Source: Diadema setosum
Lineage: Eukaryota; Echinodermata; Echinoidea; Diadematoida; Diadematidae
Length of the DNA: 64,000 nt
Assembly: GCF_964275005.1 (NCBI RefSeq)
Contig: NC_092693.1
Location: 21,348,335-21,412,334, forward strand
Direction of reading: 5' to 3'
Below the pieces are notes generated by a model. That model was given only the letters and a program-made list of their open reading frames with translations. It was not told the origin of the DNA and made no database searches. A program made the translations under genes and the position numbers. This document shows, piece after piece, positions 4,030-60,900 of this stretch (its first letter is position 1; each line of letters opens with the position of its first letter).

Positions 4030-6569
4030 TTGCAGATGGCCAAGTGTGGGTCTGTGTAACAGCATCCCTCTGGAATCGTGGGGCCATATCCCTCTAAGTA
4101 CATTCCCAGTGTACTTGTTAACCTTTTCGGAAGAGTTATCACAAAAAGCGATGAGATTAGTCATCAAGTTTGTGCACTACTAATCTCTTGGCAACAAATG
4201 TCTGCATGTTGGGTGAGTGAATGTGTGAAATGAGAGAGACAGGGAGAGATTAAAAAGGATGCCACAGGTGTACTTTTGTGTAGCCCCTAAAAACATACGA
4301 TGATAGCTGCACCAAAATGTTCAAAGCACAACTCCCAACTCAAGAATTTATTTTCAGCTGAAGGCAGATGTATTTCATGTGCTTGTTCTCTAGCTGCTGC
4401 ACTGTTTATGGTTTGCTTTACATGTAGTAGGCTTGCCTCACAGCTTAAAATGTATCTTGTAGGTCAAGCAGTGAAAGTGCAAATAAAAACATTCAGTGGA
4501 GAACAACTTCAATCAATTCAGTGTTATTGATATGATGATATTGCAGTGATAGTGCTTGAAATACATACAGTGTTCCAGGAGATATACTTTATTGCAACTT
4601 TTTCTACTTTTGGATGATGCATATGTATATGTCATTGTGTGATGATGATTAGGCAGAGCAAATGTATGAATCTCCATTCAGGAGATCAGGAGGTACAGGG
4701 GGAAGGGTGTGGACAAGATCCAATGAACATACTACAGAAGGGTGCAAATAGTTGTTTTTGTTTTTTTAGTTTATAGGCTGGGTGAGGAACAATGCAAAAG
4801 AGTTTCATGGCAACATGTATCATGTTATAGTAACAGCTTCTATCAAAATGCATCATGGTGCTTGTTTATTGTGTTGAAAGTTACTTGTATGTGTCAAGTG
4901 AAGACAGTACATTTCCTATATGTTCTCCTTTCGGGATTGGCACTAGTGGCCAAGGATTTTCCCACAAGTCATGTCGTGTCCAACTGCATACATTTCTATG
5001 CATCATGCATGCACATTTTTGCTGTGCTACTATGTCATAGAATGGTAAATATATTCTTAGTTTTTATCAGTGCAGAAGATGGGCGAATCAGAAAATTCAG
5101 AATATGCAGGTTTGCTGTTTTTAGATGGAAAAAAAAAACGCCATTTTGGTTAATGCACCTTTTTAAAGTCTACAATGTACAACAATGCAGTCATAAAGTG
5201 TTCAGTGTTTCAAAGTGTTTCAAAGAGTCAATGCTCTCCAAAGCCTTTCCATACACCAATGCCAAGTGTATGCAGGTGTACTACACTGGTGTGCATGATT
5301 TGCAGAGATTAGCCGCTAAACTCAAGATGGATACTAAAGTGCTGCTTAGATAGTTTGGAAAAATGTTGTTAAATCCATATTCACAGGAGCCCTGTATTGA
5401 TTGTTTAGAGAATTGCAAAAGCCTTTGAGCTGGACATGTCAACTCTTTAATTGTTTGGCAAGACTTGTGGGCTACCTACATGTACATGTAGTGTGCATTG
5501 TGTGGTCCTTATTGTGATGTCCTGTTCTTGTTTTGTGAGGAGCCAAAAACTCCTCTTCAGTTTCTCATCAATCATCTTGTAGTCACACACATATATAAAA
5601 AGGGTATCTACCTCCCAAACTATGCCCAGTCCTTTTGTCTTCTGTCTTGATATAAATATAATTTACTGAGTTATGTGTATGTAATATGCCATCTGATCAA
5701 TTTTGGTGGTGAAACACGCTTTGCTATTTATGAAATACGGAACAACCTGGAAACTTGGGCACTGTGAGCCTCCCACCTGCTTTTCAAATTCCAGTGTTTG
5801 GTTCTGTAAAATGATTTACTATCGGGGTGTAATTACAAATACTGAAAAAAAAATAACAAACCACAAACTGGAATGTGATTTGAAGGAAGAAACAACAGTA
5901 TCATGCAAATTTCAGTCTTTGCCCAAATGCTTCTCTCATACAATGTATTTCTACTACGCATGTACTAATTAAAATCACTTCTCCCCAGTGGAAACCTATT
6001 TGTGAGCTATTAAGAGTTACTTGTGTTCAGCTCAGAAAAGAAAGAAAGAAAAAAATTCTGATACTGTTTATAGCTTCCTACAACTGCTGTATGCCACACG
6101 GTTTGAGTACTAGAGTCAGAGTTAAAACTTGTGATATCTTCCTTGCACTTATCATTCTTGGTCATTCAGTGCAGTCTCAGAAGTTTGCAGTCAACACATA
6201 ATCATGTGGTATGTGATTGAAGGCTGTCCTCTGCAAACACAAGTTGTGTGAACTATCATCACTGGAAATCTTTTGAATGCATATTATCTGTCTTTGTAAT
6301 TTTGCAATTTTATACATTGCATTCTCTACATGCTATCCTCTATGAATATGAAATATATCTTTATATGTTTATTTCTATGTATTGTATGTGTGAATCAATT
6401 TTAAAATACACGATGATGAATTGGTTTATACGAATAATTGGCTTGGTGTTGACTTTTCTTCATTGTCTTGAAACATTGTGAAATGTACAAAGGGGGAGTT
6501 GAATTATATGCTTTGCAAGAGGAACATATACATGTACAAATTTTAGCCCACAGATATACTTTACATCTG
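4030..6569. other. Intergenic, no recognised gene
   Basis: The longest open frame here is 4742-5353 on the plus strand (203 codons, opening on GTG). Its translation is rich in Cys, Phe, Val and Lys without any domain, motif or repeat I recognise, so I do not call it a gene. No structured RNA or clear repeat element was seen in the rest. Confidence 0.45.
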
Positions 6570-7647
6570 AAAGGGAATGTAAACCCAAAGAGCAATGTGG
6601 ATTGAGTGAAAGCAGCAACATTAGTAGAACACATCAGTGAAAGTTTGAGAAAAATCGGACAATCGATGCAAAAGTTATGAATTTTTAAAGTTTTGGTGTT
6701 GGAACCGCTGGATGAGGAGACTACTAGAGGATATGACGTATGAGTGGACAACAATACAAAGAAAATATAAAGGATATTCAACAAAAATTCACTTTTCTAG
6801 AATTATGAAAGAGCAGTGGACCAACCGCTTTCAGAAAGCAGGGGGAATAATTGCTACCCTTAACATATGTCAATATGAAGTTGATGGAATTTGTAATTTT
6901 CATGAAAAATGGATTTTTGTAGTATTTTCTTTATATTTTCTTGATATTGTAGTCCACTCATACGTCATAACCAAAGACGCTTAATAAATAAGACACGAAA
7001 GTGCGCGCTAATCCTGTACAAAACAAATGGACAGCGCGCGGTCTTCAAGCGTATACACACATCACCTGAGACGCGCTGCCTTGACGCTTGATAAACAACA
7101 GCAGCGGCTTCAGGGACAGCGCGTCTCAGGTGATGTGTGTCTTTGCCTGAGACGCGCTGTCTTTGCAGATGTTGTTGTTGTTTATCAAGCGTTTTTGATT
7201 GTGAGATCATGTTGTTGCCAAATTTTTACCTCCACGAAATAATCCTTATTACTCTAAAATCTCGTTCTTCAAAATAATCACCTTAATCGAAAAAAAGCTA
7301 CGACTATAATTTTTAAATCTTTTTAAGATGACAAGAATACCACTACCTTTGGAAATGAATGATGTTTCTAGGTGTACTGAGTTTGTACTTAGCTCTCTTT
7401 TGTATCGTCATGTAGGGTAGCCATTTTGTGTCCATCTTTATCACGCGCCTTCGTATCTTACATCTCTACTATCTTTGGTCATAACCTCTAGTAGTCTCCT
7501 CATCCAGCGGTTCCAACACCAAAACTTTAAAAATTAATAACTTTTGCATCGATTGTCTGATTTTCTTCAAACTTTCACTGATGTGTTCTACTAATGTTGC
7601 TGCTTTCACTCAATCCACATTGTTCTTGGGGTTTATCTTCCCTTTAA
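6570..7647. mobile_element. Foldback DNA element with ~168-bp terminal inverted repeats
   Basis: The left arm (6570-6737) and right arm (7479-7647) are reverse complements over about 168 bp with few mismatches; for example CTGGATGAGGAGACTACTAG recurs inverted in the right arm. Inside, a second inverted repeat of about 40 bp (6735-6774 with 6926-6966, containing GACGTATGAGTGGAC) encloses AT-rich spacer. A third CG-rich set lies at 7055-7190 (CACATCACCTGAGACGCGCT and its inverse, plus GCTTGATAAACAACA and its inverse). No transposase frame is present, so this is a non-autonomous element, possibly a composite of nested insertions. Confidence 0.8.
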
Positions 7648-9282
7648 AGTGAAAATAAAGCTGTTGATACTTCTTAGTCAAAGTTGATACAACTTCTCAT
7701 AGGAAATGGTTTTAGAGCCAGATGATAGGGATGTCATTTCTCTGTTTTAATTTGCCATCTTTGCCATCTCCATAAATACTACAGATTTTTCAATGCTGCT
7801 ACACAATCTGAACAAGATACAACATGACAATCCATTCACTCGGTCATTAATCCTCCGCTTCAGATTGGGTTTATTTCTGTACAGATTCACAGAATACAAT
7901 GTACAGGTATATGTTGACAGTAATAATACTGTATATACCTGCAGCCTTTCTTCTTCCTAAAAACAATCACACAGTTTGCCAGGTACAGGTTACAGGTTCA
8001 TGTGTGTGACAGTGTGAGATTCTGGATACTTTGGGAGACAGCATTATGGCGATTCACCGACATTCCTACAATATCCTAAAACACAAAACAAAACTTGATT
8101 TTCTGATTCTGTTCAACCCTATAAATTGATGGGTTTCAATGTGACTTTCTTTTCTTCTTCTTTTTTTCAATTAAAATCTTTTGGAACTAGAAATTTAACT
8201 CAGATTTCTTGGAAACCAAAGGGAAAATCGCATGCCAGATGAGAAAGGCACTGAGCATATTCTCTTAGAGTGGGATAAGAATGCTATTAAAGATCAGCAT
8301 GATTATACCCTTCATATTATGCATTCAGGAAAAAAGAACCAGATGAAATGAAATGCATATATTTCCAAACACTGACACTGACAGTATTGTTTATTCTGAG
8401 AATTGTAATAGACTGCCCATTGCTTCTTAATTAAGTTTCAGTGGTTCTCATAAAGTAGGGATATTATAAAAAACAACAACAAATGAAACAGAAAAATACT
8501 ACTCAACACCACCGGATACAAGATTTTATTGTACTACATTATCTACTTATTTACTTATTTACTTACTTATCTACTTTCTTAAATGAAGCATGGGAAAATA
8601 TCAAAATATAGGTTAGACATTGGCAAATATCCATAATGAACTGTCACAAAATTTAAACAATGTTGTACGACAAGCTGGAACCTCTTTACGAGGTCAAAGG
8701 TAGCGCAATGCCTGAAATAACAAGGTAATTTTGCAGGTCCCGTTCCTTTTATATATACTTTTGTTTTTATCCCTGTTGAAAGATGACACTTGATATAATG
8801 AGGAAATCTCAGCAGCTCCAAGCAGCTCGTTACAAGGTCCCCCTTGTGCAATCAATACATAGCTCTTCAGGCACAATCAAAGTAGGTTCACAGAGTCCGA
8901 GTTTGGTTTTAAAGTCAGTACAGTTGTATGACCATCATGTTAAATGCAGTCAATGAAGTCTCCTGTCTGCATTTGCCACTTTTTAACCACTGCCTCATCA
9001 GGTCAACGTTTACTGTTGTTTTCGACAGCCCGAGCTTTGCCAGAAAAATGTTGGCAATGGATAATCATATCATACCCATTCTAGGAGACACAAGTCACAG
9101 TGAAGGCATGTTGGGGGGGGGGGGCACTCTCTCATAAGAATGGAAAGCCCAGAATGGAGACCAGTTTGCACAACAGTTTTTTTTTTTTTTTTTTTTTTTA
9201 ATCTAGAAGCAGAACTGACTGACATCCAGACTGAATGAACCAGTCCTACCTGCGTTAATCTATTTGCACCTTGAAAAAGGCG
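7648..9282. other. Intergenic, no recognised gene
   Basis: No coding region was recognised. The stretch holds a TTAC/TTAT-type simple repeat near 8545-8575, a G run at 9113-9123 and a T run at 9177-9199. It lies downstream of RPUSD2 and may include its 3' UTR or downstream flank. Confidence 0.45.
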
Positions 9283-15500: not shown

Positions 15501-18500
15501 GTATACTCGGGTTAGTGTCTATGGGAAATATGTGTTGTAGCAAAATCAGCCCATCCTCAGATGGGTTAAAGAATCTTGGGGAAGTAATACTCCGATCAAT
15601 ATGTTGAGTTACACTTTCCAGCTGGAAGAGGGCTTACTGAATCGATGTGCCTTTCACTTTGACCTCGTCTCTCACCTTGGGAATTCCCCCTGGACCTTGC
15701 AGACATAGATCTTCTCCAACCGCCTGTCCCTGACATAGGCATCCAGTCGGAGCGACACTTCCCTCGTTCTGAAAATGGCACATTGGGAAATTCTGGTAAA
15801 TTCACTCCACTTGCCATACTCCTTGTGGCATAATGATGTATAGAATGTTCTGTGTGATGTCCCAAGTAGAAATACATAACATTTTTGACACTGACAAACA
15901 TCATTATGCAATTTTGTGCAGGTCTTTGGGGTTAGAACCGGAGACAAGTCTTGTGTTCTTTGTGGGCCACTGAGCACATCTACCCCATATAGTTAGTGCT
16001 TGACAATTAAACCTGTTCTTATGGTTAGCATCTTTTGTCCATTACACACTTTGAATCGGTCCTACATCAAAGATTTTTTTATACAGGTGCGTTAGCATGA
16101 CACACATACATTTGCATGAAAGTACACTCAGATACCATCTAACAAGATCATGGAAATGAAATTTTGGGTAAGGAATTGGTGACATACCTCGCAAAGAGCA
16201 GCAGCCCAGAAGTCAGCCTGTCCAAGCGATGAATTGCTGTTGAAAATCGACAAGGTTTTGAGAAATAAAAAGCATTACAAGTTGATCACAGTTAAAGAAA
16301 TCCAGATCATGCAAATTTTTCGACAGTGTATTTAGTTGGAACTCAGTTCAGCATGTAAACAAGCTCTCTCATACTTCACTCTTTATTCAAACTCATGAGT
16401 CACAAGAAATACTGCCTACTACAGAAAATTCATCTTATCTGATACACTTCACAGTTGAAAATAGCAGACAGCCAGAAAAAGAAAAACTCATAACAACTCG
16501 CCATGGCCTTGCATAATACAATCATTTCATTAAAATGCTGAGATTACCATGGAAGTATGCCAACTGCTCTCATTAGGTCCTCAATAATTTGTAAAAGCTC
16601 TTATTTTCATGAGGGTTTAATTTTGATGAATTTAACGAATCACTGTTGGGCTGTGAATTTAACAACACATAAAAACACAGCAAACTGCAAGACATTAGTG
16701 CACTTACGATAGCTTCGGTGTCAAATTGCAAAAAGGAACATCTTGCGAAAATGTCTGTGTTCTCCTCGTTCACAAAAGTATCTGTAGGCCTACGTGAAAA
16801 TGATAGCTTTTACATTACACTGCATTACTTTAAACAATATTTTGATGTTGGCTGACAGGTCTCTGCATGATATCCTCTAAATGCATCTGTATGTGTTCCC
16901 CAAGTCAATCATACATATATCTTGCCTAAAATTCTCTATTAATCCTTGTGCAAGCAAAGCGAAAAAAATGTGAATTGAAGTGAAAAGAACTAGAAGAGGA
17001 TGTATACAGCACTCACTATGAAGACCACGAAAGCCATACTCCCGACCGAGAATGAACACCAGGGTGTTGCGACGATACTTTCCACAGGGGTGAACCTGTA
17101 AAAGGGTGGAAGGACATGAGAATGACAAGGATTATTGCCCAGTAACAGCTCTCTTTGTAAAGTGTTTCATATAGTTAGTGCAAATTTATAACAACAGACC
17201 TGAAAACTCATCTCTTTCAGTAGTAATGCATTATCTTTTCATACTGACAAATATTGTCAGTATGGACTGGACAGTAGTACATGAACTGCACATTAGTCTG
17301 TCTATTTTGAGTGTTCATCCATATTGGAGCAAGCACTGGTCAGGTTGAAAAGCTGCTAAACACAATTTTTTTGATTCCTCAAATATCTCATTCTTCAAGA
17401 GCATTCTGACAAACTTACTGGAATGGAGGCTGGTTTATTGATGACTAGATAGTCTTCTGTGTCGGCGATGATCTGGATGGGCTCTCCAGAAACTGGTGGC
17501 TCGTGACGGTGAACCTTGGACTGCATGAAATCATTGTTCCGTAGGATGCGGTCCGGTGACGCGGCAGCCTTGTTGACCCTAATGAGGCCCTCTTTGATGG
17601 CCACTTCCTGGGGGTGCAGAGATGATTGAAATAGGGATACTGACATTTCAACACTCACTCATATTTAGAATCATAATTCACCAGGGACAGGATTCACTTT
17701 GCCATTAGAAAAGGACATTTACATTTACGAGGGTTTTGTTATCTTTTTTTTTTTCTCCTGGCTTCAAAGGCATACATCCATCACACAGTTGTTGGAAGTG
17801 ACACTTGACTGGGAGAGACTGATGCAGCACTGCTTATATATCTAGAAATGCCCACGTAAATTCTGACGAGCTCACTATCAAAAGTTAATTAATCACATCT
17901 CATTTATCTGACACTTATGTTTGGAAAATCCATAGACATTTTTTGGTCGTTGTTGAGATCAAATTGTAGTACAAACTAGCTGCAACAATTACTTGAACAC
18001 CAAGCTTACAGACTGCTTTATCATCTTGACAGAAATGACACATAACATGTCTCTTCAAACAAATATGTAAGTGAGCACACAAAGGTGATACGAGGATCAA
18101 CTCTATGACCAAACTACTATATGCCACCTTTGGAATAATATTTGAGATTGAGTGACCAGATCTGTGTTATCAAAACAAACAAACAAACAAACAAACAAAC
18201 AAACAAACAAACTAACTAACTAACTACCGGTAACTAACTAATAACATACAAAAAAACTTGTCAGTTCAAGCAGAAAATATGTACAATTTTCCATTCAAGC
18301 TAGAGAGAAGATTAGTAAGGAAAGCTTCTCTAGGTAAAGTATATATATGTGTGTGTGTGTTCGGGGGGGGGGGGGGGGGGGGGGTGATGATATCCTAGTT
18401 TTAAATCCTTAAATGTTTTTATTGTCATGATGTTGACAGTACACCTTTATTCACACATAGTAACTGTATACCATAAGTCCATGTGAAAATCATGAGTTTC

Positions 18501-45389: not shown

Positions 45390-48300
45390 TTTTTTTTTTT
45401 TCAGTGATCTTTTTATTAATTCCATTTCCTTTGAGAATATAACAATTCAAAAAAAAAATTACACACATTCTACATAACATCTGTCATAAATCATGTAAAT
45501 ATTCCTACAGTTATGAGACATAATCCATAATCCATAAAACAAGAATAATCATTCAATTCATTTTAAGGCAGAAATCAAACAGAAGAGAGGAAATAGAATG
45601 AATTATCCGATCATTCCTTTTTAACTACAAAACAAACAAGCAGAATTCATAAATGCAATTGTGAGCAATTTAGCCAAACACTAAAAAACAGGAAATGAAA
45701 TTTCTATTATAACAAAAGAACAATGACAACAACAACAACACAAACCACCCTCATTCCTACCTTTCCACCATACCCAACCCTCAACTACTCATAACTTTAA
45801 ACTTTAACCCCCCCCCCCCAAAAAAAAACAACAACAACAAAAAAACGTCCTTCTCATCCCTAAACCACCTCCCCACGCTCTACACCACATCCACCTCCTT
45901 ACCCGAGACAGACACACTCCCTCTCATCCACCTCTCATCTCATCCACCTTTCATCCCCCATCCATTTACACACCCACCCTGCACACACATCCACTTAACA
46001 CACACACACACACACACACACACATCCACTTAAACACACATCCACACCCCCTGCACACACATTCACTCAAGACAACACACAGTTATTTCTGCTCGCATTC
46101 AGAACATAAATAATTATGCTAATTATGCTTAGGATATATTCTGCATACACACAATACATGCATGCACATACACATATCATACACACAATATACATATCCA
46201 CATACCTGCATATATATTTTATATACACAATACTTATCTCTGAACTCAAAAACATCTAAAGAAAAGAAGTCAGTAATCAAACACACACAAAAGGGGAGAA
46301 GTACGGGTGCATAAATAAACTAATCCTTTACAAATTATTTAAACATTCCCATTTCAGCAAATGCAAACCCGGTTTATTTCTTCTAATGGCAATATCATTC
46401 TCTTCCTTTCGACATGTCATTAATGCCTTTTTTAATTCTACCAATGTCGGTGTTATTAACTGTGACCTCGCTTTATATAACATATGTTTAACTATAAGAA
46501 TAAGAGTGTTGTACAGTTTGATTCTGTGAGAAGTTCCTTCTAAACCAATATATATATCCCGCCAAGCTAAATTACGTAACTCTTCTAACTGAAAGTACTC
46601 AATGAAATCATGCCATAAAGATTTAACTTTTTCACAGTTCCAAAATAAATGCGAGTAAGTTTCAGAGCTTTTTCCACAAAAGGAACATAAATTATCAGCC
46701 ACAAAACCAAATTTTAGGAGCTGTTCCTTAGTATAAATCGCCCCGTGTAATAACTTATATTGAAATTCTCTTAAATCTCCAATTAGAGTTGAACTTCTGG
46801 GCCTTATAAAAATATCTCTCAAACTTTTATCAGCGAAAACAAATTTTTGGTGTCCATCTCTAATTTCTAAACAGTAAGACTGCTTTAAAAGAGACACGAA
46901 ATGTGAATAAATCTTCCTGGATTGTATCTTTTTTAAATCTGTAATTTGGCCAAAAAACTTTAAAGGTATATTAAAATCACTGACATCTACTTCATACCAA
47001 TTGCATAAAATTCCATCATATTTCCCACTTTTCAAAATGGACTCACAAAGACTCCATACATAAGCAATATTTTCACTTTGTAAACCTAAACTTTGAAAAT
47101 AACTAATTGGTCTTTCGATTGTTTATCAAATAATTGTTCTAAGTGATAAACCTTCCGCTCGTATAAATCTGCATTAAATATCATTTTCCCTCTCAATAAA
47201 AAATCTTTGTTATTAAATATAATTGGATTAATTTTCCCTTCTTCAAAACTTCTGCAGTTATATAAATCTTCCCAGGCAGCTAACATTTCTAAATAAAACG
47301 ATGGTGCCTTACTGCCTTAAGTGAAAGTTTTTTAGTCTCATAATTGCAAAGAAATAAAATTCTACCTCCTACAGCTTTAAAACTGTGATCAAAGTATACT
47401 TTCCAACTCATATTTCGTTCTCCATACAAAAGTCTTTTTACCCACATCACCCTCTGAGTTTTCACAAACAATTCAAAATTCATCATTCTCAATCCACCAT
47501 CCTTATAATCCTGATACATAATGGCTCGTTTGACGCGATCCTTGCCCTTCCACACAAAATCAAAGCAACTTTTTTTGAATTTCATCAAATAACCATTTTG
47601 GAACAACAGAGGATGACGCCACATAAATCAATTTAGATAAAGCATAAGTTTTAAGTAAGTGAATTTTCCCCATGATGGTGAGATCTCTTTGCTTCCACCA
47701 ATCTAAAAGTCTTTTAATTTTACTTAATATTTCTTTATAATTAACTTCCTCCATTCTCTTCCTTTCTAAAGCAAATGTAATCCCTAAAATCTTAATTTCT
47801 GTAACTATACTTCCAAACTGAAATTGTGCTACATTCTCTTCATCCTTACCAATAATCAAAACCTTCGTTTTATCCATATTAACCCTTAAACCACTGACTT
47901 CCGAAAAAATCTGAAATAAGTTTTGTAGTAACCTAACTGACTCTTTATCTCTTATAAAAATTGTCATATCATCAGCATACAGTATCTGCTTTACTTCAAA
48001 ATCACCAAGATCAATCCCTCTCAAAGTAGTCTCATTTCTCAAAGCATGTGCCAAAATTTCAATGACTACTAAAAATAAATAAGGTGATAATGGGTCACCC
48101 TGACGCACACCCCGTTCTATTCTAAAATAACCGGTTGAAAACCCCTCATTCATTACACAGCTGCTAATATCAGTATAACATGTCTTTATCCAAGAACAAA
48201 AAGAAGGGCCAAATCCAAAACTTTTCAAAACGGTCAATAAAAACGAATGAGATGCCGAGTCAAAGGCCTTCTCAAAATCAACAGCTATTAAATAACAACC

Positions 48301-49586
48301 TATATTATATGACAGACAGTGAAAAATCATATCATCTATTAATCGAATTGCTTCCCCAATATTTCTGTTTTCCCTGTATCCCACTTGATCCGTGTGTATT
48401 ATCTCACTCAAAACTTGTTTCATTCTCTTCGCCAAAACCTTTGAAAGAATTTTATAATCCACATTCAAAAGTGTAATCGGTCTATAATTCTTAATATAAA
48501 GAGGATCTTTACCATCTTTTTCTATTAATGTAATGGTCCCTTGCTTCTGTGATACTGATAAATTACCCCTATCATACGCTTCATTCAATGCTTCAACTAA
48601 ATGCCTGCCTAAATATGGCCAAAAAATGATATAAAATTCCACCGAAAGCCCCTCATTACCTGGAGCTTTATTATTTTTCATCTCTTTTAAAACTTCATAA
48701 CATTCATCTATAGTAATCTTTCCTTCACAAAATTGTTGACTTTCCTCACTTAACTTTGGAATACTTTTGAAAAAAAAAAACTTTCATTTGAAACATCTTT
48801 TACTGCACCCCTCTTCTTTGAATAATAAAATGTTTCATAAAAATTTCGAATTAACTTCAAAATTTCATTTCTATCTTTTATAACAGAATTATCTTCACTA
48901 TATAATTCATATATTATAGTTTTCTTTTCATTTGATTTTAATAATTGTTCAAAATATTCTTTATTCTTTTCCCCGTTCTCATACCAAGCTGCTCGTGATC
49001 TAACTTTGAGTCCTTCCAATGATCTGTCATATAATTCACTCAACATGTTTTTCTTTTCAACATATTGTTTATTTGTTTCTAAAGAAGTAGCAGCAGTTAA
49101 TAAATTTTGCTCTAAAATTTTTAATTCCTTTTCTAACTTTTCAATATTAATTCGCCTTTCCTTTGCTTTTCCTTTCGAATATTTTCTTGCATATTCACTC
49201 ATCTTCATTTTAAAAAAATCCCCCAAAACTAATTTATCATTAAATGCATCTTCCCACGTTTTCATAATACTTTCTATTTCCGTTATCATTCCTTCTACAA
49301 ATTCTTTATCATTACACAAACTGTTATTAAATTTCCAATACGATTTGCCCACACAGTTATAGCTTTCCGGAACAAGTTGTAATTCTAATCTAATACCGGA
49401 ATGATCAGGAGTAACAAATGTCATAATTTCACAATTTCTTACTAATCGCACCATGTGGTCTGATATGAACCAATAGTCTAAACGAGTTTGTACTAAAGGG
49501 TTTAACTGTTTGAAAGTAAATTGCTTACTGTCCGGGTTTCTTTTCCTCCAAATATCTAATAAACTATATTTCTTAAGAAAAAAAAT
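45390..49586 (-). mobile_element. L1/Tx1-like LINE, 5'-truncated
   Basis: A non-LTR retrotransposon on the minus strand. The 3' end has poly(A) (T12 at 45390-45401 on the plus strand) with AATAAA 11-16 bp inside it. Above that lies a ~0.9-kb 3' region rich in CA/CT simple sequence (45780-46060). ORF2 follows from 46328 to about 49586, starting inside the endonuclease domain. The endonuclease N-terminus and ORF1 are missing, and the 5' edge abuts a (TTG)n run, as expected for 5' truncation. It sits between the divergent PDCD6 and LONP2 genes. No clear target-site duplication was identified. Confidence 0.85.
46328..49586 (-). pseudogene. LINE ORF2 remnant: endonuclease C-terminus, reverse transcriptase, zf-RVT
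   Basis: Segments in transcript order: endonuclease tail and linker (about 49586-48750, with DYWFISDH and TPDHSG), reverse transcriptase (48681-47560), then 47624-47289, 47286-47086 and 47035-46328. The RT core shows NYRPITLLNVDYK, AVDFEKAFDS, GVRQGDPLSP and the catalytic YADD box. The last segment carries a C-x2-C-x8-H-x4-C zinc knuckle (CSFCGKSSETYSHLFWNC). Frame changes occur near 48.77 kb (at an A run), ~47.57 kb (at a T run), ~47.29 kb and ~47.06 kb, so the copy is dead. Long intact stretches suggest it is not ancient. The RT style is that of the L1/Tx1 group; clade is inference. Confidence 0.85.
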
Positions 49587-49587
49587 A

Positions 49588-49633
<46 letters not shown>

Positions 49634-49641
49634 GCTGTTGT
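49588..49641. repeat. (TTG)n microsatellite at the LINE 5' boundary
   Basis: About 18 TTG units ending in GCTGTTG, lying exactly where LINE ORF2 similarity stops. Confidence 0.9.
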
Positions 49642-51194
49642 TTTAATCAAAGCCTGTCACAATTTCACACCGGTAAATTATACCATGGAGCAACTGGTTT
49701 TTGCCTTCTGGCGTAGATCATAGGCTTAATGATAGAGTAGAAGAAGTGGTAAGCACAAAGGAGCAGACAAACAATACACTGCAATCGGTTTGTCTGTTCC
49801 ATTAAATCATAGTCCATCAAATTTGATTTACTCACGAAGACATCACAAAGTTTTTCATAGTTTACATTTACCCTTATCAGGCCTCAAAATACACATTACG
49901 TACATACGTATACAATAGTCTTAGTTTACAAAAAAAAAATACAATAGGCTTACTTTAATTCAAGCATCAAAGAACCATATTCATAAAACAAGAGGTTACA
50001 CTGAAGGTCACGTATTTGACTATATAAGTCTATATATCTATCTTGATATACTAGTTTCACTTTTTGTTTGTGCCTGCCATATGTGTGAGTGTCAAGCCAA
50101 ATTTCTTTCCCTTAAACAAAACCAGCTTTTCACATTACGTATTCTTTGTTTGGTCGTTTTCAGCTTTGTGTTTGATCAAAAACAAAATATGAATGATGAG
50201 ATACAACAATCATATTTTTCTTGTTATTCATGCGTTATAGGGCCTACCTTGATTGGTGGCACTTCTAACAATTTCAATGTCCTAAAAAACACGTATAAAG
50301 CTGAATAAAGATAAAAACAAAAGATCTATTCCTACCATCATTTGGTGCTCTTTTCAATGAATTTATTGTTTGTACACTAGTTAGTCACCCCTATAATTTG
50401 GCACATTTTACCAATATGAGCAGGTTAGTGATGCTGTGCATGCATTCATTAGTGTAATCAAGGAGCGCATAAAACAGTACCCAATATTTTTATCATTTCC
50501 TCCACACCAAGAATAAATAAATAGATGAATGAATACATAAATAAAATGTAGATAGATAGATAAATAAATAAATGTATAAAAACATAAAGACATGCATACA
50601 TAGATAAATAAATAAAGAAATAATGACACGTACAAGTAGAAATATATCGTGAAAGAAGAACAATATGACTTTTAAGTGATAACAAGTAACCTGATAATCT
50701 TTCAATTAGCTCTTTTAACCTGTCCATGCCATGGGTTGATCTGTGTGAAAGCGTCGGTGAAATCAGTGTTGCGACAATATGGTGCGTTTGTTTGTTTGTT
50801 TGTTTGTTTTTATTCAATGTTTTAACTTTCAGGGAAAGTAATTTATTTTGCTGGATTTTTATTGAATCTTTTAATTGTGATGTGAAATTGCGTTGCATAT
50901 AGTTTGATCACGCGAGTCCATATAGGTCCTACTCGACGGCACACCCGAAAGTCGCGAAAATAGTCGCTCGAAAATAGACATTTTAGTTTGAATTTGATAC
51001 TCCATCAAAAGTTCACAGGCGCCACATAGTAATCATTTTAGACATGATATTATTGAGACAATAAAGTTTTCTTAAACGAGTACAATAAATGCCTAATCGG
51101 GGCTGGGGTGCCCCAACTTTTTATTCATTTTTATTTATTTTGTTTTTGCTTATGGCAGACGATTTTTGGATGGCCCTAGTGGCAGCAAGAAATG

Positions 51195-51228
<34 letters not shown>

Positions 51229-51960
51229 ATTGTTTAACTCGTCGGCCGATCTTGGGAGAGAAGTGGGCAGCCAAAAGCGTGAAGACCTTTTCTTTTCCCT
51301 CAGTCATTTCTTCTTTTTTTCCCCTTTGCTTGTTAGCCGATTTTCATAGACAAATGGAATAAAAAAGTGGATTTTTTTTTATTTTGCTTTGCTTTGTTTT
51401 GTTTGTTTGTTTTTAGTTTTGTTTTTGCTTGTCAGCCAATTTCGGAAGGAAAGTGAAACGAATCAAGGTCCCTGTTTCCATAAATTCGATACCACCACCG
51501 TCTCTGATGCATGCTGATACAATATATTTATGTTGGGATTATATGGGATTCTTTTTTTCCTGGAGGGTGGGAGATTACTAGGGAGCTTTCGAGTTTTATT
51601 GCTATGGTTTCAGGGAAGGGACGTAAATGAGGCTTTTATTTGTTATTGGAGACTATGTGGATATTTTCCTTTCTTTAACAATTTGAAAAACACAGTGTCT
51701 CAAACAAACTTCCAGTGGTGGACCATTGATTCCCAGCAATCATCTGCTCAGAAAATTTTGTTGTTGTTACTTGGCTTTTTACAGCCACCATAGAAATCGT
51801 TATCTGCAGAATCTTCACAATCGCCAAGTCGACTAGATTCATGCCGTGAATCGTGTTACACAAGCGGGCGGTTTTGCTGTGAAGATAGGCAATGTAATAA
51901 TTCATAGCGCAGAATACAATGCAGTATTGCATCACAACGTCAAGGTCTGCCATTACAATC
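49642..51960. other. LONP2 upstream intergenic region
   Basis: No gene is recognised. Contents are simple sequence: diverged ATAAATAAATAG-type repeats (50513-50620), (GTTT)n at 50786-50810, (TTG)n at 51195-51232 and T/TTTTG runs at 51368-51430. The LONP2 promoter must lie near the right edge; I see no TATA box. The long minus-strand open frame overlapping LONP2 exon 1 (51675-52265) has no recognisable domain. Confidence 0.45.
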
Positions 51961-54900
51961 ATGTCGGACAGAAAGGGACTGAGTATTCCACGGCGATTGC
52001 CACTTTTACTAGTGGCGGACGCTGTGCTTTTACCTGGAGCATCGATGAGAATACCTGTAAATAACCCTCGGAAGTAAGTATGAAGGATTTTTCCTAGCTG
52101 AGAAAGACAAGAAAGGCAACTATTCAGCTGCTCATTATGTGAACAGCGGTGAATGAGCCGCCCTGCCCTGGCGCTGTAGGGAGCGCTCGCTCGCAGTTTC
52201 GCACCTCTGGTCGGGCCACTTTCAGGTTCAGCTACCGGTACGCAAGTCTGCGGACGGACTGACATGATATCTCCCTGCCCTGTTGTAACTTTTTACTACT
52301 GCTGCGGCTAATTAGTAATGTGCGAGCACTTACTGTATTCAGCTCTTAATGATTCTTAAAAAAAAAAAAAAAAAAAATTAGTAAAACCGGGCGCTAGTGT
52401 CCAGTGCAGTGTGGCTCTGCATGCTTTGCTTATTTGGCTTCTTTGGGCTCTCTAACAATAACAATAACATGTTAATAGTCTAGGACTAGACTATTGACCT
52501 TGTATCCTCCGCAGAACCGTGACAGAAAGTAGGGTAAATACTTACTACACGCAGCCGCTGTCGCGAAAGACAGCGGCTGCACCTCTATTCCTTTGCAGAC
52601 GTCGTCATTTTTCAGTGTGGTTGTGCGACTCCTTCATGAATATCTTTATTAATCGTGGAAAATTAAAATACGAGGAATTATCGTAATCTATGATAATCAT
52701 TCAATAATCGGTAGGCCCTATGTGATTTTTTGTTTAATTACGTCAAAAACTCACCGAAATCTGTGGCTGAAATCAGGTCTGTAAACGTCCTTATTGCTTC
52801 ACTCCTCATCTGCGTGTTATTTGAATGGCATTCACTCTCGTATACTACAACGTACAACGTAGGTAGTCGGAGAGCTAGAGAGGGCGCCTCTCTGACTACC
52901 TACGTAGAAAAATGACAACGTCTGCGAAAGAATAGAGGTGCAGCCGCTGTCTTTCGCGACAGCGGCTGCGTGTAGCTAGGTAAATACTAAATAGTAACTG
53001 GACCAGCAGCCCCAAACGCGTTTGGGGCTGCTGGTCGCAGTTAGGTAAATAGTGGGCATCATTCCTAAAATAATGTGTCGCCTTGTCAGTGACAATTAGA
53101 ATCTAGGGCCTAAATTTATGTGTATTAAGGGGGGGGGGGGGCGGACATTTGACTACATCAAGGTTTTGCACCCTCCTCTGTGTGTTGAATGAATGAATGA
53201 AGGATGGCATTGTTAATGTAAGTGCTGGTGGTTTTGAGACTTTTTTTTTTTATTAAAAAGAAATTGGATGACAAATATCACCATTTGAACCATTTCATTT
53301 TTCTTGGTAGCACACACTTCACAAACTAAGCATGTTATTAAAGTAAGCAAATTCTGCTCTGGTCTGACTTTTCTTTGGCTGTTTAAACCTATGTGTTAAT
53401 GCTGTGATTTGTTTTGTTTATTTTGTTTTGTTTTGTTTTGTTTTTGTTTTTTTGCTGGTTGTGCAAATGCTTTGTTGGCAAATTTTTGAAGGCTTTGCCA
53501 GTATGGATGCTGCAAAATGGGGTGATGGGCAGAATACTGGCAGATTCTCCAATTACTTTCCTTCCAGAAATTAAAGCCAAAATGTAGTTCTGCAGAATTG
53601 TCAATTATTGCTCTAAAATATATGCTCAAGAAATGTGTGCAATAATGTAATGACATGATTTAAGTTGGGTAACAACAAAAATAAGAACTACTACTAGCTG
53701 AAAAGGTTTGTAGGAAGTCCACAATCTCGGAGCTAATACCACAATATATCGATTATCAGTAATCAAGAAATTGGGCCACAGCGATATCCACTTATCTTCT
53801 CTACTAGAGTGAATCACATTCAGCTTTTTAGAAAAAAAAAAAATGATTGTAAGGGCACAACCAATCATCATGCCACATTCTATCCTCCAACAATGCTGAA
53901 CGCGGGGTTAACAGGGAGGGCTCTCCTTGAATGAAACTTACACTTTTGATCTCAAAACACTCATCATCCTGGCAAATCGCGTCAGCCAGGTAAGTTTCTT
54001 GGTAGACCCTTTCGGTGTATCGGAAGCAAAGTTCAAATGATCAAAGATAAAGTTTTAGCCCCTCCAAGAACTTTGCTTTGGCTTTATTGTCAAGTGTCTG
54101 TCAATGTTCTTGGAGAAACTATTTTAGAATGAGTGGAAGGAAACCAACGTATGCAGTCATTAGGATGATTTGTAGATATTACATTGAATATTGATGATAT
54201 CGCTGAGTTTTTATTTACCTCAGGCAAATGGTTTTGTTACATTCTGAATTTTGGTCATCATGGAAAAAAGAGGCTGTTTGCAGTGACTGTTTTGAGTGAA
54301 AAGCAGTCAGCAAAGGCATTAATTGAAAAGCACTTATAATTGAGAGCCTTTTTCTTCAAGTAAACTTGTATTGATATTTTAACCCATTGAAGACTAGTGC
54401 AAGTATACTTGGGCAGGTACATGGGGAATGCATGTTATAGCAAAATCAGTTTGTCCTCAGTGGATGTAAAGTAACAAAGATTAAATCTCTATCTCAATGC
54501 ATTATCAGCATGAACATGGTGAAGAGTCGCATCCTCCGCCACAACACACTGACCAGCACCATCATTGGAGTTATCCCAAAGGATCCAGAAAAAGAGGTGA
54601 TGAAAATCAAGTTGTTCCTTCTTTTCCAAGATCTACTTCTTGAATTTGTTAAGGTGTTCACAATACATCTATTATCTATGGCTGCTAGTAGAAAAATATA
54701 TTTTCCACTTGCCCTGTAGGCATTTGAACAAGGGCCCATTACTGTATATTGTACCACCAGGAAAAGGGTATAACAAAAGTTGTTCTTCACACTTTACTGA
54801 TACCATATTTCTCATTGATTTTGATTTGCTAACTAGAATGTATTGTATGTAATTTCTCACATAAACTGCCTCCTATTTTAATTTCTTCCTTGAAAGTAAG

Positions 54901-57900
54901 TTATGGAAAGATTGTCTTTGTAAAATTCTAAAGTATTTTCTGATAGAAACTGCAAAGTTAATGTCATATTTCATGATATGGTATATAATACACTTTTCCA
55001 TTTTTTTTTTTGTGTGTGTATTTGCTGTCTATGTGTATTTTACTTTTGGTTTGATATGCCCTGATAAATGCCTGGGCTCGTGCCCAGTCTGTAACGACGC
55101 GAGGGGATTAGTTAGTGCACTTGCAGACTCACCTGCCTCATAGTCACCAATTAACTTAATTAAGGGCAGCAATTAAAAAGATATCACACTAAATTCATAA
55201 GGTTAATTACTTTTATTCCAAGAGAAAACTCTCCTCTTGTCTAGGTAATTCAGCGAAGTGTTACATGGCACTGAAAGTACAATGATTATACATAGTTTAA
55301 ACGTAGCATGCAACTTCTTATAGTTCAGTTATGGTACTCACAGCTTCAGTGCAAGGTGCAAAGGGGGGGGGGGTTAATAGGGGAAAGGAGGAAATTGTCC
55401 GTGATCACTGGCTACATTCACTGCAGTCCTAGGCCAGTGGCCTCTCGCGGCATCTCATGGCTTCGCGGCTGGTACACTGCGGTTTCCGGCTGTCTTCGCT
55501 CCTCGTCACTTCCTCACCAGCTCATCAGGGGTATTAGTGGGCCTCAGGGTGGGGTGTGCGACATTCACAGTTCACATGGGTAATACATGACCCATGGTAA
55601 TACATGACCCATGAACACGATAAAGTCTTTTCGGACAGTGGCAAAAGGCGATTTAGTTCAAATCAGTTCCGATTCCGCCGGTTTAATTTTCAATTCAAAT
55701 TCTCCAAGCCGGTCCCTACCATGCTGGCAATCACAGTTTGACCTATGGCACTATGTAATAGGAATTCTTGTTCGCTCGCCACAGCGAGGGATGACGCACT
55801 ACTATCAATTGGCCGAGCCAGGCATTACTGCCCAACGAACATCTCGAATGCGTCCATTCCTGCTTAATTCACAAAATCGTTGCAATCCCTGACATCTTTC
55901 CCTTTCCGAATTTCGGAAAGAATTCTTAAACTGTCCTACTTCTTCGAAAATCTCTTCAAATCTTCTCCCAAACTCCTTTAAGATCTCTGCAAAAACTCTG
56001 GCAGAATTCTCCTTCAAAATCTCACTAAAATTTCTGGCAGAATCTTTTCCTGAAATCGCGTGCACAATGAATAAATGGGCAAATCTCATAAAAGAATCTT
56101 TCTTCCCAACATTGACTACCCTTTTTAAACTAATTCCTTAATCCCTCCTACCATTCTGTTATCCAATCATCACAATTAATTTCTCCCACCTGAATTATTG
56201 ACAACCCTCTTTCGACCAATCCGCTTACCTGTCCCCAACTTGACCTTCTCCTCTCACCTGTGTAACCTACATGTACCTGCGCCTCGAACCCAATCTGACA
56301 CTCTCCCTTCCTCCTATTATTTATAAAACAAAGCCTGGCTTCGCTGCGAGCCCTTTAGCTTTCTCCTGCAACAGGATTCCCGAATTAACTCACACTACCA
56401 CAATATTCTCGTTAAACACCTCAACTCCTTGTCAAACATGTACTCTTAACATCCCCCCTGCTCTATCTATTTCTTTATTTCCTTAAAAATCACCTGCTGT
56501 CTATCAAATGTCCTTCTTTTTTATTCCCTTTGTCTGATTCCCTACAATGTCCTACCATGCCCTAAGCCCTCTGTCTGAACCGTATTCACCCTATGCCTTG
56601 CCCTATCTACTCCCTGACCCTCTATATTCTAATTATTCCCTTTATAACGCCCAACCTTTTCGGAACCCCCTTTTTTTCACCTCGCTACATATATTTGAGG
56701 CAACGTTATGTTGTTTTTTCCCCTACTCTTCAGGATGCTCTTGAGAGCATGCACACTATTGGTACTGCGGGAGTGGTTGTCCAAGTGACGGGTACCAACT
56801 GGCCCCGTCCAGCCTACACCCTGCTAGTGACCGGCCTTTGCCGCTTCAGTCTTGACCGCCTCATCCAGGAAGAGCCCTACCCTGTGGCCCAGGTCAAACA
56901 GCTGGACAAGCTCCCTGGTGACGAAGCTGGTAGGTCAAAGGTCACATACCTATCCCTGCATTGGTCGTGTCCACATAGTGCCAATGGGAGACTGTGCATA
57001 CCTTGTATGATTGTCACCTGCAGGTGTGTTGTTGGTTACTGGTAGGATTTGATTAATGCCTCAAATATCTTTCTGTTAAAGAGCAGTGGCTTTACATTTC
57101 AGGAAGAAGTGAGTATAGTGACAACTCTATGCAGTTGAGAGGGATTAGTGTCATTACACACACACACGTAAAAGCTAATACTTGCCCTTGAATTTATAGA
57201 AGTAGTAGTAATAGTAGTTGTTGTGCCAGTAGTATGAACCTTGCCAGTTTTCCCCGATTGTCAATGTCTGAGTCACTTTTGCTGCACTTAGGATGTGAAT
57301 GTTGTGATGTGGAAGAAAGGGATGAAATCTGCGCAGGCAAAGTCCTTCAAATGTGTTGATTTGTATTACAGTCTTGGTGAGCTGGTATCAAAGTCAAAAT
57401 TTCATTGAAAGGACATGACTTTTGAGGTGGCTACTGCAATGTGCAGACCACAATTTTGACTACAAGGAGTCTTGTTCTATCTGGCACATTTCCCCTTATC
57501 ATTTCCCCTGGCCACATTCCCTGTCGACAAGTCATGCCACCTCAAGATGAAACAGAGTTTCTTTTCTTTTCTTTTTTGTTGCCAGCACTTGTAGCAGACG
57601 TAGAGGCGTTGCCCGTAGCAGACAACTTTCGAGAGCAAGCTGAGAGACTGCTGAAACTATTGGATGTCTCTACCCCTGTTGTGGCCAAACTCCGGGTATT
57701 GTATAGAAACTTGCGTTAAATGCTTTAATTCATCTCTTTATAGACCTGTGGTACAACTGTAGGAGTCACTCCAGATAGTTTTGTGCTGTGAAAGAGAGGT
57801 TCTGGTATGTAAAAATTTTAAGGAATATGCGAGCCAAAAAATATGAGATTTTACTGAGTTTCGAATATCAGCATGCTGGTGAAAGTGGCATGCTGTGGAC

Positions 57901-60900
57901 ACATCAGATGCCTTTTCATGAGTAGGAAAGCACCTGCCAGGTGGCTTCGCTTGGTTCTCATTCAAAGTTTTGATGGAGTACAGGCATAAGTCAACTCTGT
58001 TGGGACCACAACCCTAGTTCAACTTAATCAAAATTTGACTTATGCAATGTGAATGGTACAAGTTAGTGCACTGCTAGTCAAAAAATGGATTTGACTTGAG
58101 TTTAATTGTAAGTACAATTGTAAAAATATTCTGCTAAAGAAACATAATTTGTGGATATTTTCAATGCATTACCCAATGTTTAGAATAAAAAACAAACCCA
58201 TATATCTTCTAGCAGATGGACATTCCCTTTCACAGCCTATATTCTTCATTTCATCATTAGGTAGTTGATGTGTATGTGTTTGTGAAGGACACTTTTTACA
58301 GTGCTTCCTGTGATTAAGGTTGTGTAATTCAGGGCTTCCTGTGATATAGTCCATGGAGTAAAACAAGTGCAAACAAAACATATCTTGCACATATACTGGT
58401 ATGTGTGCTAGCCTGTGTTCATCATTGGGAGTGTGTCTTGGCATATATGCAGTGTGCCTCATGTTTTTATGCAATCAACATTTGCATAGTCCATAGACTA
58501 GACTCAAACCACCTTTTGGAATTATGGCAATTCTGTTTCTCAGCCCACGTGTACCATATTATATATGTTTATTCCAAATTATATTTTTATTTTATTCCTT
58601 TTTTTTTTATGGTAGAGAATTCCAGGAGTCTTATCTCGACAAGATATGCACAATGTCTTTCATTTTGGGCTCAGTCACATCAAATCATAACATTACAAAA
58701 ACAATGTGCCACACAGATGTGACGCAAGCAAAAGGTTTATTATCACTGGCTGTTTGTAGTGGTTCAATGAACAACATCTCACGTGTCTGGCCAAGTGAAG
58801 TCATGCATTGTTGCACATCACCAGAGTCCGAAGATCAAATCAAAAGGGCCATGGGGGATAAACAAGCTGTTTATTTTAGCTGGAACTTTGTCCCATGGGA
58901 TTTATAAATAGTGCTGCTGACCTTGGGTACCAAAGATTCTTCTGCTAACTTCAGCTTTTATGGGTGCAATTCTTAATGGACATTTGATCACATTGTTTTT
59001 TTTTTTGTTTTTTTTTGATGGGCTACCTAATGAATGACAGAAAGAAAGAAAAGAAAACAGATACTGTACATGCTGTTATTTTCACGAATGAGGAAGTCAT
59101 AGACATTTTCGTGAGATGTTGTATTCGCGAATTGACACAGATGCTAACGTAATTGATGCACTATTACCCAAGCCCATGGAGACATATTCGTGTTGTTAAA
59201 TTCCTGATCCAACTGTGATTCGCGAAATTCACGAAAATTAAACCCTCATGAAAATAACAGCTTATACAGTAGCATGCTATATGAGCTGGTGCGAAAAAGA
59301 AAGAAAAGAAAAGAAAATAGAAGTCCTATTTAGCAAGTTTAGAAAAGGATTTGGGTTTACACTGTAATCCCCAAACCCAATGTTATACAGTCTGGCACCA
59401 TAGCATAGTGAGGAAAAGTTTGATTTTCATTCGTGGGCAAGTGGGGGAAAATGATTCGGTTATCAAACCAATGACCTGTGTGATTAAGATGATTCTACCG
59501 CATCCATATGAACATATGGACTCATCAGAGTAACTGTTTGCGCATCATTTACATTCTATACATTCCCTGTTCTTATCAGAACCCTGATTTGAGATAGTGC
59601 ACCTCTGTTAAATTCAATGCGAACAATTCAATAATTGACATCAAACAATGTGGTAGTGGTACACTTATGAATGGGAACAATAAATTGATATAATAGAAGC
59701 TGATTATCCATGAGCTTTACACTCACTGTTTGCATTGTTCTTTCAGAGATAGTACATTCGCTATTGTGCCAGTGGAAACTCCATTTGCTATTTATTTATT
59801 TATTTATCTATTTTGATAACGAATTGCTGTCTCTCATTGTTCGGTAATAGATGCCAAGTATGTGGCACCATTATACTAGAGAATGTCTGTACAGTTTTAA
59901 ACTTGGAACATTTACCTGTATGTGCTACAAAACCGTTGATGTTGTATGATCTATGTATGCATTGTTTACTCTGCTCTGTTGGAGGTCATGGCTGAGGATA
60001 ACCAATTTTTCTCTGGTATAAACGATTCTCTCCTTCAGCGGCTCCTTGAGAGTCTACCCATCGCAAGACTGCCAGACATTGTTGCTTCCATAGTTCAGGC
60101 CTCCTACAATGAAAAGCTGGAGGTAATCTCTTTGCACTCTACCCACCTTGATGTAATGCTGGATTTGTAAAGTTTATTTCAATGTTTGAACTTGTCAAGT
60201 TTATGATAGCCGAGTGTGATATTGCATGGTATGTCACAGACTACTACTCCTAGAATGACAGGTTTACCAAATATGTATAAAGTGTTGTGGTGACAAACTT
60301 GATTGATGTCTTTTAAATGGATTGCCCATGATTTTAATGTGTATATTTGTGTAAGTCTAAATTGCGATGTCATGAAAAATTTTGTGACCAGAAGAAATGA
60401 AGCCGTAGTTCTTTAGTTCATAATATGTGGGGATGTGCACAATATATTCTTTGTGTCTATATTCTATTGATGTTTCTAGCCATTGAAACAATATGTAGTT
60501 ATTTTTAATTTTGCTGGTTCATATGAAGACTCTGAATTAAAAGTTGGACTTGACATGATATCCTCCATGGCCAATTGCAGGTCCTGGATGCTGTTGACCT
60601 TGAGACCCGCTTCCAGAAGACGCTGCCCTTGCTCATCCGCCAGATCGAGGGGCTGCGCCTCCTGCGGCATGCAAAACGAGGCAGCAATGAGAGGTCCGAA
60701 GACGTGCGGGTGCCCCCCGCCCTCAGGGACAAGAGTTCGGTGGTGGTGATAAAGAACAACCCCGGGAAGCGTAGCGCCTTCGTCGAACGCGACGACCGTG
60801 ACGACGAGAGGGATAGTGAAGGGGACGAGATCTCGGAGTTGGATCGCAAGATCCGGTGAGGGGCCAAGAAGAGGCTGATTGCTGCAGATCGTCACCTGCC

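Follow-up and report, generated by a model that had tools for sequence, protein, structure and literature searches.

Two hairpin-bearing foldback elements, probably in one short target of a sea urchin LON-gene intron, one of them probably collapsed to a solo hairpin

An intron of a LON-protease gene in Diadema setosum carries two neighbouring hairpin structures, el1 and el2, best read as a pair of non-autonomous cut-and-paste elements that share a design and inserted into the same short target. This reading, to which a probability of about 0.75 is attached, takes el1 as an arm-deleted copy and el2 as a "solo hairpin" produced by joining of end hairpins, with a Mutator-like transposase acting in trans. 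Both lie in the window, the 64-kb stretch of DNA that was analysed as a whole.

The host site appears to be intron 1 of a LON-protease gene, a placement supported by a Pfam LON substrate-binding domain that is split between 51901-52074 (model positions 2-26, a weak match at E 0.09, under the curated cut-off) and 56566-57042 (model positions 57-121, E 3.4e-9). Shorter exon pieces gave no match to NCBIfam or PDB sequences. The initial annotation had named the site LONP2 intron 1; the LON gene and the intron number are supported, while the name LONP2 and the exon limits are tentative and follow a reading of the frames. The features of the locus are as follows.

52533..52542, no strand: left target-site duplication of el1, GGTAAATACT
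52543..52978, plus strand: el1, 436 bp, a foldback copy shorter than the 643-682 bp of most other family members; identified by own-genome matches
52545..52613, plus strand: el1 left terminal inverted repeat (TIR), 69 nt, 96% complementary to 52907-52975
52551..52580, plus strand: hairpin in the el1 left TIR, 12-bp stem with perfect arms, 6-nt loop GCGAAA
52857..52905, no strand: el1 central hairpin, 18-nt arms, 94%; the midpoint of the entire palindrome in full-length copies
52907..52975, minus strand: el1 right TIR, 69 nt
52940..52969, minus strand: hairpin in the el1 right TIR, perfect 12-bp arms, 6-nt loop
52979..52988, no strand: right target-site duplication of el1, GGTAAATACT
52986..52994, no strand: el2 left flanking 9-mer, ACTAAATAG, overlapping the el1 duplication by 3 bp
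52995..53043, no strand: el2, 49 nt, composed of TAACTG, the 36-bp perfect palindrome, G and CAGTTA
53001..53036, no strand: the 36-bp palindrome, perfect and spacerless
53044..53052, no strand: el2 right flanking 9-mer, GGTAAATAG

Much of this had been described beforehand and was recovered on measurement, including the 436-bp element with terminal repeats put at 68 bp, the 12-bp-arm hairpin in each repeat with a third one inside, the spacerless 36-bp palindrome, and a repeated word at 52533, 52979 and 53044, which is GGTAAATA. The hairpins at 52551-52580 and 52940-52969 also form a 30-nt direct repeat (family D3), 80% alike, with the difference in the 6-nt loop. The 49-nt el2 hairpin has a fold z-score of -8.2, and none of 200 shuffles was equally stable. 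The word GGTAAATA also stands at 5044 and 54212, and five occurrences in 64 kb are ordinary (13 of 100 shuffles reach five), so the weight rests on its placement at the junctions instead. Bracketing of both structures by the same ~10-bp word holds for el1, which has the exact 10-bp GGTAAATACT on both sides, as expected of a foldback transposon that duplicates 10 bp of its target. It fails for el2, whose flanks ACTAAATAG and GGTAAATAG agree in just 7 of 9 positions because the middle GGTAAATA belongs to GGTAAATACTAAATAG. A scheme drawn from the window alone, with 8-bp duplications TAAATACT and TAAATAGT for el1 and el2, was discarded, since other copies show el1 ending in GYTA with duplications of 9-10 bp.

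The window holds further repeats. A second large foldback at 6560-7655 has 178-nt arms that are 93% complementary, a further inverted pair (6729-6802/6899-6972) and nested hairpins at ~7058-7190 with perfect 16-bp arms at 7115-7161. Frames resembling those of a non-LTR retrotransposon occupy 47560-49646 on the minus strand (Pfam RVT_1, E 1e-40 for 47560-48783), and a 79-nt repeat occurs in opposite orientations at 16590-16668 and 59190-59268, 85% alike and 42.5 kb apart. Pattern scans of viral contigs gave no match.

In its own genome (912.7 Mb, 102 contigs), el1 has at least 145 matches, with 40 of 418 first-look candidates scored, and the copies sit in different flanks. Single-copy status, which would have spoken against the transposon reading, was found for neither structure. 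Forty-one el1 loci were examined (the window, L009-L047 and L059); ten were without one recognisable end, leaving 31 rows, and lengths come from 30, as the ends of L046 derive from different copies and give a negative length. The element measures 643-682 bp in 23 of these 30 copies with both ends. One copy, L028, aligns to its own reverse complement over its whole length; many others give one match per strand with only the centre in common. Judged by such alignments, el1 copies are palindromes nearly end to end, and the 436-bp window copy, which is without most of its right arm, is evidently a shortened form of a palindrome of ~655 bp. The two arms of one copy are no closer to each other than arms from separate copies (median identity 0.969 within copies, 29 pairs, versus 0.969 between copies, 2386 pairs).

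Inspection of copy flanks for 9-10 bp duplications, proposed by the initial annotation as a check, was informative. At the fixed junction, where only the 27 el1 loci with exact end motifs can be judged, 20 have a perfect duplication (13 of 9 bp, 7 of 10 bp). The cross-locus control gave 2 of 702 pairs, both L029/L033, which have identical flanks. With shifts permitted, duplications are seen at 27 of 31 loci. The traits by which foldback elements are recognised are all represented: long inverted repeats over most of the element (29 el1 copies with both arms; the el2 parent L098), a target-site duplication (el1 20/27 against 2/702; el2 parent 2/4) and dispersed multicopy occurrence of both families.

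Each terminal repeat contains its own hairpin, and this feature is well kept. The 69 el1 ends comprise 22 hairpin sequences, all of which fold into a stem except the left end of L026, which is collapsed to 10 nt; loops vary in length and sequence. In a second count, six to eight of the eight outer stem pairs are formed in 68 of 68 ends. Both stem arms have changed together in two ends (L046R and L059R), and such covariation within a palindrome can reflect self-templated correction instead of selection. The two ends of a copy are unlike: A-type ends usually have TAACTACAC with a TCGCGAAGCGACG centre, G-type ends TAGCTACAC with AGAG. One end of each type is present in 25 of 28 full copies, with like ends in L021, L023 and L059; this hand count omits L046, the window copy and L047 (one end unreadable), and copies without one end.

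The second family is that of el2. The el2 query found 11 places, the window included, and the el2 end word ACTGCGACCAGCAGCCCC, with at most one mismatch, has 1478 plus-strand and 1492 minus-strand matches (control 0 and 1). A listing of 100 exact ACTGCGACCAGCAGCCCC places contains 28 pairs that face each other at 579-675 bp and a further pair at 5,478 bp; the other 42 places are without an exact partner in the list. The paired ends mark a longer parent, represented by L098, a foldback with 255-nt arms at 93%. Nine of 12 parental ends (L098-L103) fold into a terminal hairpin, and the remaining three, which have a duplicated end, fold otherwise. When longer flanks are included, the complete parent measures 656-658 bp. 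A perfect 9-bp duplication, ATTGCATGA, surrounds it in L105 and L108, two of four loci tested; in L104 and L109 the left copy is absent. The two families have a common design, with termini TARCT(R)C, a full-length foldback of ~650 bp and a GC-rich hairpin in each terminal repeat. A 9- or 10-bp duplication is established for el1, and for the full el2 parent in two of four loci.

Some el2 parents lie inside a larger element of ~1 kb that has a 152-bp outer TIR and TTAA at both ends (L108 and L109; in L105 a script identified one of the ends and the second was seen by eye), at the following positions.

L105, 401-1421: TTAA element carrying an el2 parent
L108, 396-1421: TTAA element carrying an el2 parent
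L109, 433-1457: TTAA element carrying an el2 parent

On contig 1, the flanks of this element were recognised by eye at 12 or more of the 21 unpaired el2 ends read, and a good part of the el2 copy number is therefore probably due to the TTAA element. The 5.5-kb pair of el2 ends in L097 was considered as an autonomous el2 relative and rejected, as it looks like a TTAA element with a DIRS-like retroelement inside; six-frame translation of L097 1-5901, read by eye, shows reverse transcriptase and tyrosine recombinase frames within an element of TTAA type.

The hairpin built on the 36-bp palindrome of the window, el2, is probably a solo hairpin, collapsed from an element of ~650 bp that lost its interior. 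With a hairpin in each end, the left and right hairpins are direct as well as inverted repeats of each other. Replication slippage or single-strand annealing between them would then delete the interior, and what is left would be a single hairpin that retains the two native ends and is still flanked by the old target duplication. Solos of this form exist in the genome as products; from their sequences we infer the joining event and that the duplication is the old one. Solos of el1 were predicted before the search, which returned nine places (control 0) with nine different loops. Eight of the nine were read (C20:19191063 was left out), and five of these (L132, L133, L135, L137 and L138) show a perfect duplication of 9 bp at the fixed junction, combining one terminal unit, both outer ends and a duplication as a solo LTR does. 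The other three are without a clean duplication (shifted in L136, 7/9 in L131, none in L134). An A-type end is paired with a G-type end in six of the eight; both ends of L134 are A-type, and the left end of L136 is unreadable. The loops of L132 and L133 are, by eye, half A-end and half G-end. These mixed ends and chimeric loops indicate that two different ends were joined.

For el2, the exact solo pattern occurs at 26 places (control 0), four of which were read. The solo at C5:27010528 equals the parental left hairpin running into the right end, one G short. Twelve of the 26 form three sets, of 6, 4 and 2 places, within which the centre is identical; this suggests that they multiplied as such, within larger repeats or through duplication, and the shared centres count against in-place collapse as the sole route. 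Among the 21 unpaired el2 ends on contig 1, the only solo is L129, with CTCCATCTC on both sides, which was spotted by eye where the script flagged none. One in 21 implies that solos are a small minority.

Other origins of the solos have to be weighed against collapse. Units of ~45-65 bp with two complete ends might transpose as such, and the presence of both ends in each solo, the perfect 9-bp duplication in some and the centres shared with another place by 12 of the 26 el2 solos would fit such mobility. It is nevertheless judged unlikely, since the nine el1 solos have nine different loops, as separate formation would give, and the combination of A- and G-type ends, together with the chimeric loops, points to two joined ends of a longer copy. 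Far less probable still is snap-back synthesis, in which one end folds back and is copied, leaving the palindrome as a hairpin by-product. The perfect, spacerless palindrome of the window and the two A-type ends of L134 are in its favour, but it predicts identical ends and loops, whereas six of eight el1 solos have two different ends, and by itself it would not yield both native termini plus a duplication. The related proposal of the initial annotation, a hairpin by-product of transposition, is not supported, given the palindrome's own family sequence and ends and its perfect 9-bp duplications elsewhere. The alternative offered there, a second, minimal insertion, survives in part: el2 belongs to a multicopy family, in keeping with a mobile element, and is a separate insertion, but it probably entered as an element of ~650 bp whose interior was lost later.

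Collapse of a longer element thus remains the preferred origin of el2, and a further matter is how el1 and el2 came to lie side by side. Two insertions into one, partly duplicated target had been suggested and are the favoured reading; the two elements do adjoin, 16 bp apart, with flanking 9-10-mers that overlap by 3 bp. A comparable arrangement occurs in L059, where el2 (duplication CTAGCACTG) and el1 (TGTGCAATG) are also 16 bp apart and their duplications overlap by 2 bp. The clearest case is L055, with the order CTCCACACC, a 147-bp element X, CTCCACACC, an el2 solo and CTCCACACC, all exact. In L053, a hairpin of ~40 bp and el2 lie between GGGTAACAC, GGTAGTAACAC and GGGAAACAC, which are similar and not identical, and in L062 el2 has an el1 fragment at a distance of ~120 bp (by eye). 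In all, el1 sequence is found within 200 bp of el2 in 3 of 11 el2 places. Two histories would fit the window: el2 may have hit GGTAAATAG, the left copy then gaining a 7-bp repeat before el1 entered it, or the 7-bp repeat may be older, with el1 and el2 as neighbouring hits.

The second history has a broader form, in which the GGTAAATA words predate the insertions as a tandem TAAATAC/TAAATAG and the elements are independent adjacent hits. This is a serious possibility, held at somewhat less than even odds. The spacer GGTAAATACTAAATAG is a 7-bp tandem repeat by itself, the L059 elements have different duplications at the same 16-bp distance, and in 31 rows, most with ~200 bp of flank, none of the valid duplications near el1 recurs exactly a third time; L032 has a third copy only for a non-matching pair. 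Against this stands the exact triple CTCCACACC round two elements in L055, which indicates that re-use of a target occurs. Three other candidates for shared targets were set aside: the extra GGTAATACC copies of L060 form a 17-bp tandem repeat that preceded the insertion (by eye), X and el2 in L071 have GGCTTCTAC in common with a mismatched el2 left flank, and the third TACACAGCC in L135 belongs to another hairpin element (by eye).

Other hairpins accompany these loci. Hairpins scoring at least 10 number 18 in ten el2 loci (28.0 kb), of which eight are el2 itself and one is an el1 centre, eight in the 64-kb window, of which four are in el1 and el2, and two in 12 MULE loci (39.1 kb). Hairpins of 41, 29 and 28 bp lie near el2 in L053 and L062. 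Element X, found at L055 1348-1494 (147 bp, CTCCACACC) and L071 316-421 (106 bp, GGCTTCTAC) with 9-bp duplications, may represent a further, third family with this design; in L055 short hairpins are seen by eye near both ends, and the predicted fold of the whole element pairs the two ends instead. Another hairpin family, with TATACACAGCCCAGTCGCTGTAC ends, occurs by eye near solo el1 in L135 and L136 and in the right part of L046, the solo el1 of L135 standing at the end of such an element.

Judged solely by duplication length, the mobilising enzyme would most likely be a Mutator-like transposase acting in trans. The el1 duplications (13 of 9 bp, 7 of 10 bp) fall within the 9-11 bp range used for plant MULEs in PMC3310237, and in PMC3169594, 45 of 53 complete copies of Tm1 of root-knot nematodes have duplications of 8-10 bp, mostly 9 bp. 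The genome has 27 MULE-domain matches. No el1 or el2 end motif lies within ~1.5 kb in 24 of the 25 MULE loci read, L078 having two loose matches, and no autonomous relative or transposase tied to either family was found among these 25. Helitrons are not known to make a target duplication and have a hairpin and CTRR near the 3' end only; a Helitron identity was rejected on the hairpins at both ends and the target duplications. Mobilisation by another superfamily (P/Galileo, Merlin or hAT) is improbable, if still to be reckoned with: no transposase was found, and the foldback form is also described in the P superfamily in the Galileo reports (PMC3573991, PMC4168063). These reports give Galileo duplications of 7 bp (PMC3573991) and, in D. 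willistoni, 7-8 bp (PMC4168063), so that the 9-bp and sometimes 10-bp duplications of el1 do not fall in the 7-8 bp class and suit Mutator-like or Foldback elements better.

The Mutator-like reading is kept on this basis, and a more speculative idea concerns the hairpins themselves, which could be the working part of the design. Extruded cruciforms would mark the ends for the transposase and draw insertions beside existing copies, so that members of different hairpin families accumulate where targets coincide or overlap, and they would give every copy a built-in route of collapse to a solo of 40-65 bp that may move again. This idea is rated as distinctly unlikely. That several hairpin families gather at a single target does raise a testable question of target choice. 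More generally, a perfect, spacerless palindrome in an intron is explained here without selection or an exotic mechanism, and a simple, testable rule emerges: where both ends of a foldback contain a hairpin, the element can be reduced to a solo in which neither the termini nor the target duplication are lost. Such solos, under 70 bp, are easy to miss and leave near-perfect palindromes scattered through the genome.

Foldback elements, Drosophila FB among them, TIR-only derivatives and solo TIRs are already known. An account of hairpins in both terminal repeats yielding two-ended solos was not found in the literature searched, most subscription journals and Repbase lying outside it. MITEs are short, non-coding, high-copy elements with TIRs and a target duplication, and el1 and el2 resemble them in those traits; the elements described here differ in being nearly all palindrome, with nested terminal hairpins and 40-65 bp solos. 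In solo LTRs, end-to-end recombination between the direct terminal repeats of a retrotransposon removes the interior and keeps the duplication. The outcome is like that of solo hairpins, with the difference that LTRs are direct repeats, whereas el1 and el2 have hairpins within inverted repeats. Tm1, a Foldback/Mutator-Foldback element, shares the foldback form, the non-autonomous copies and the mostly 9-bp duplications (PMC3169594); its repeats consist mostly of ~14-bp units in tandem, unlike the single hairpin per terminal repeat and the solos of el1 and el2. Galileo (PMC3573991) is likewise a foldback with many internally deleted, TIR-only derivatives, 2-TIR and solo-TIR copies among them; its duplications are 7-8 bp, and a solo TIR there is one TIR, whereas here both native ends stand in one hairpin. 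Successive insertions at one site through shared target-site duplications, with elements of the same type forming arrays, are described in a review (PMC12628747). The likeness lies in the re-use of one duplicated target, and the difference in that the elements there are of the same type, whereas those described here come from different families.
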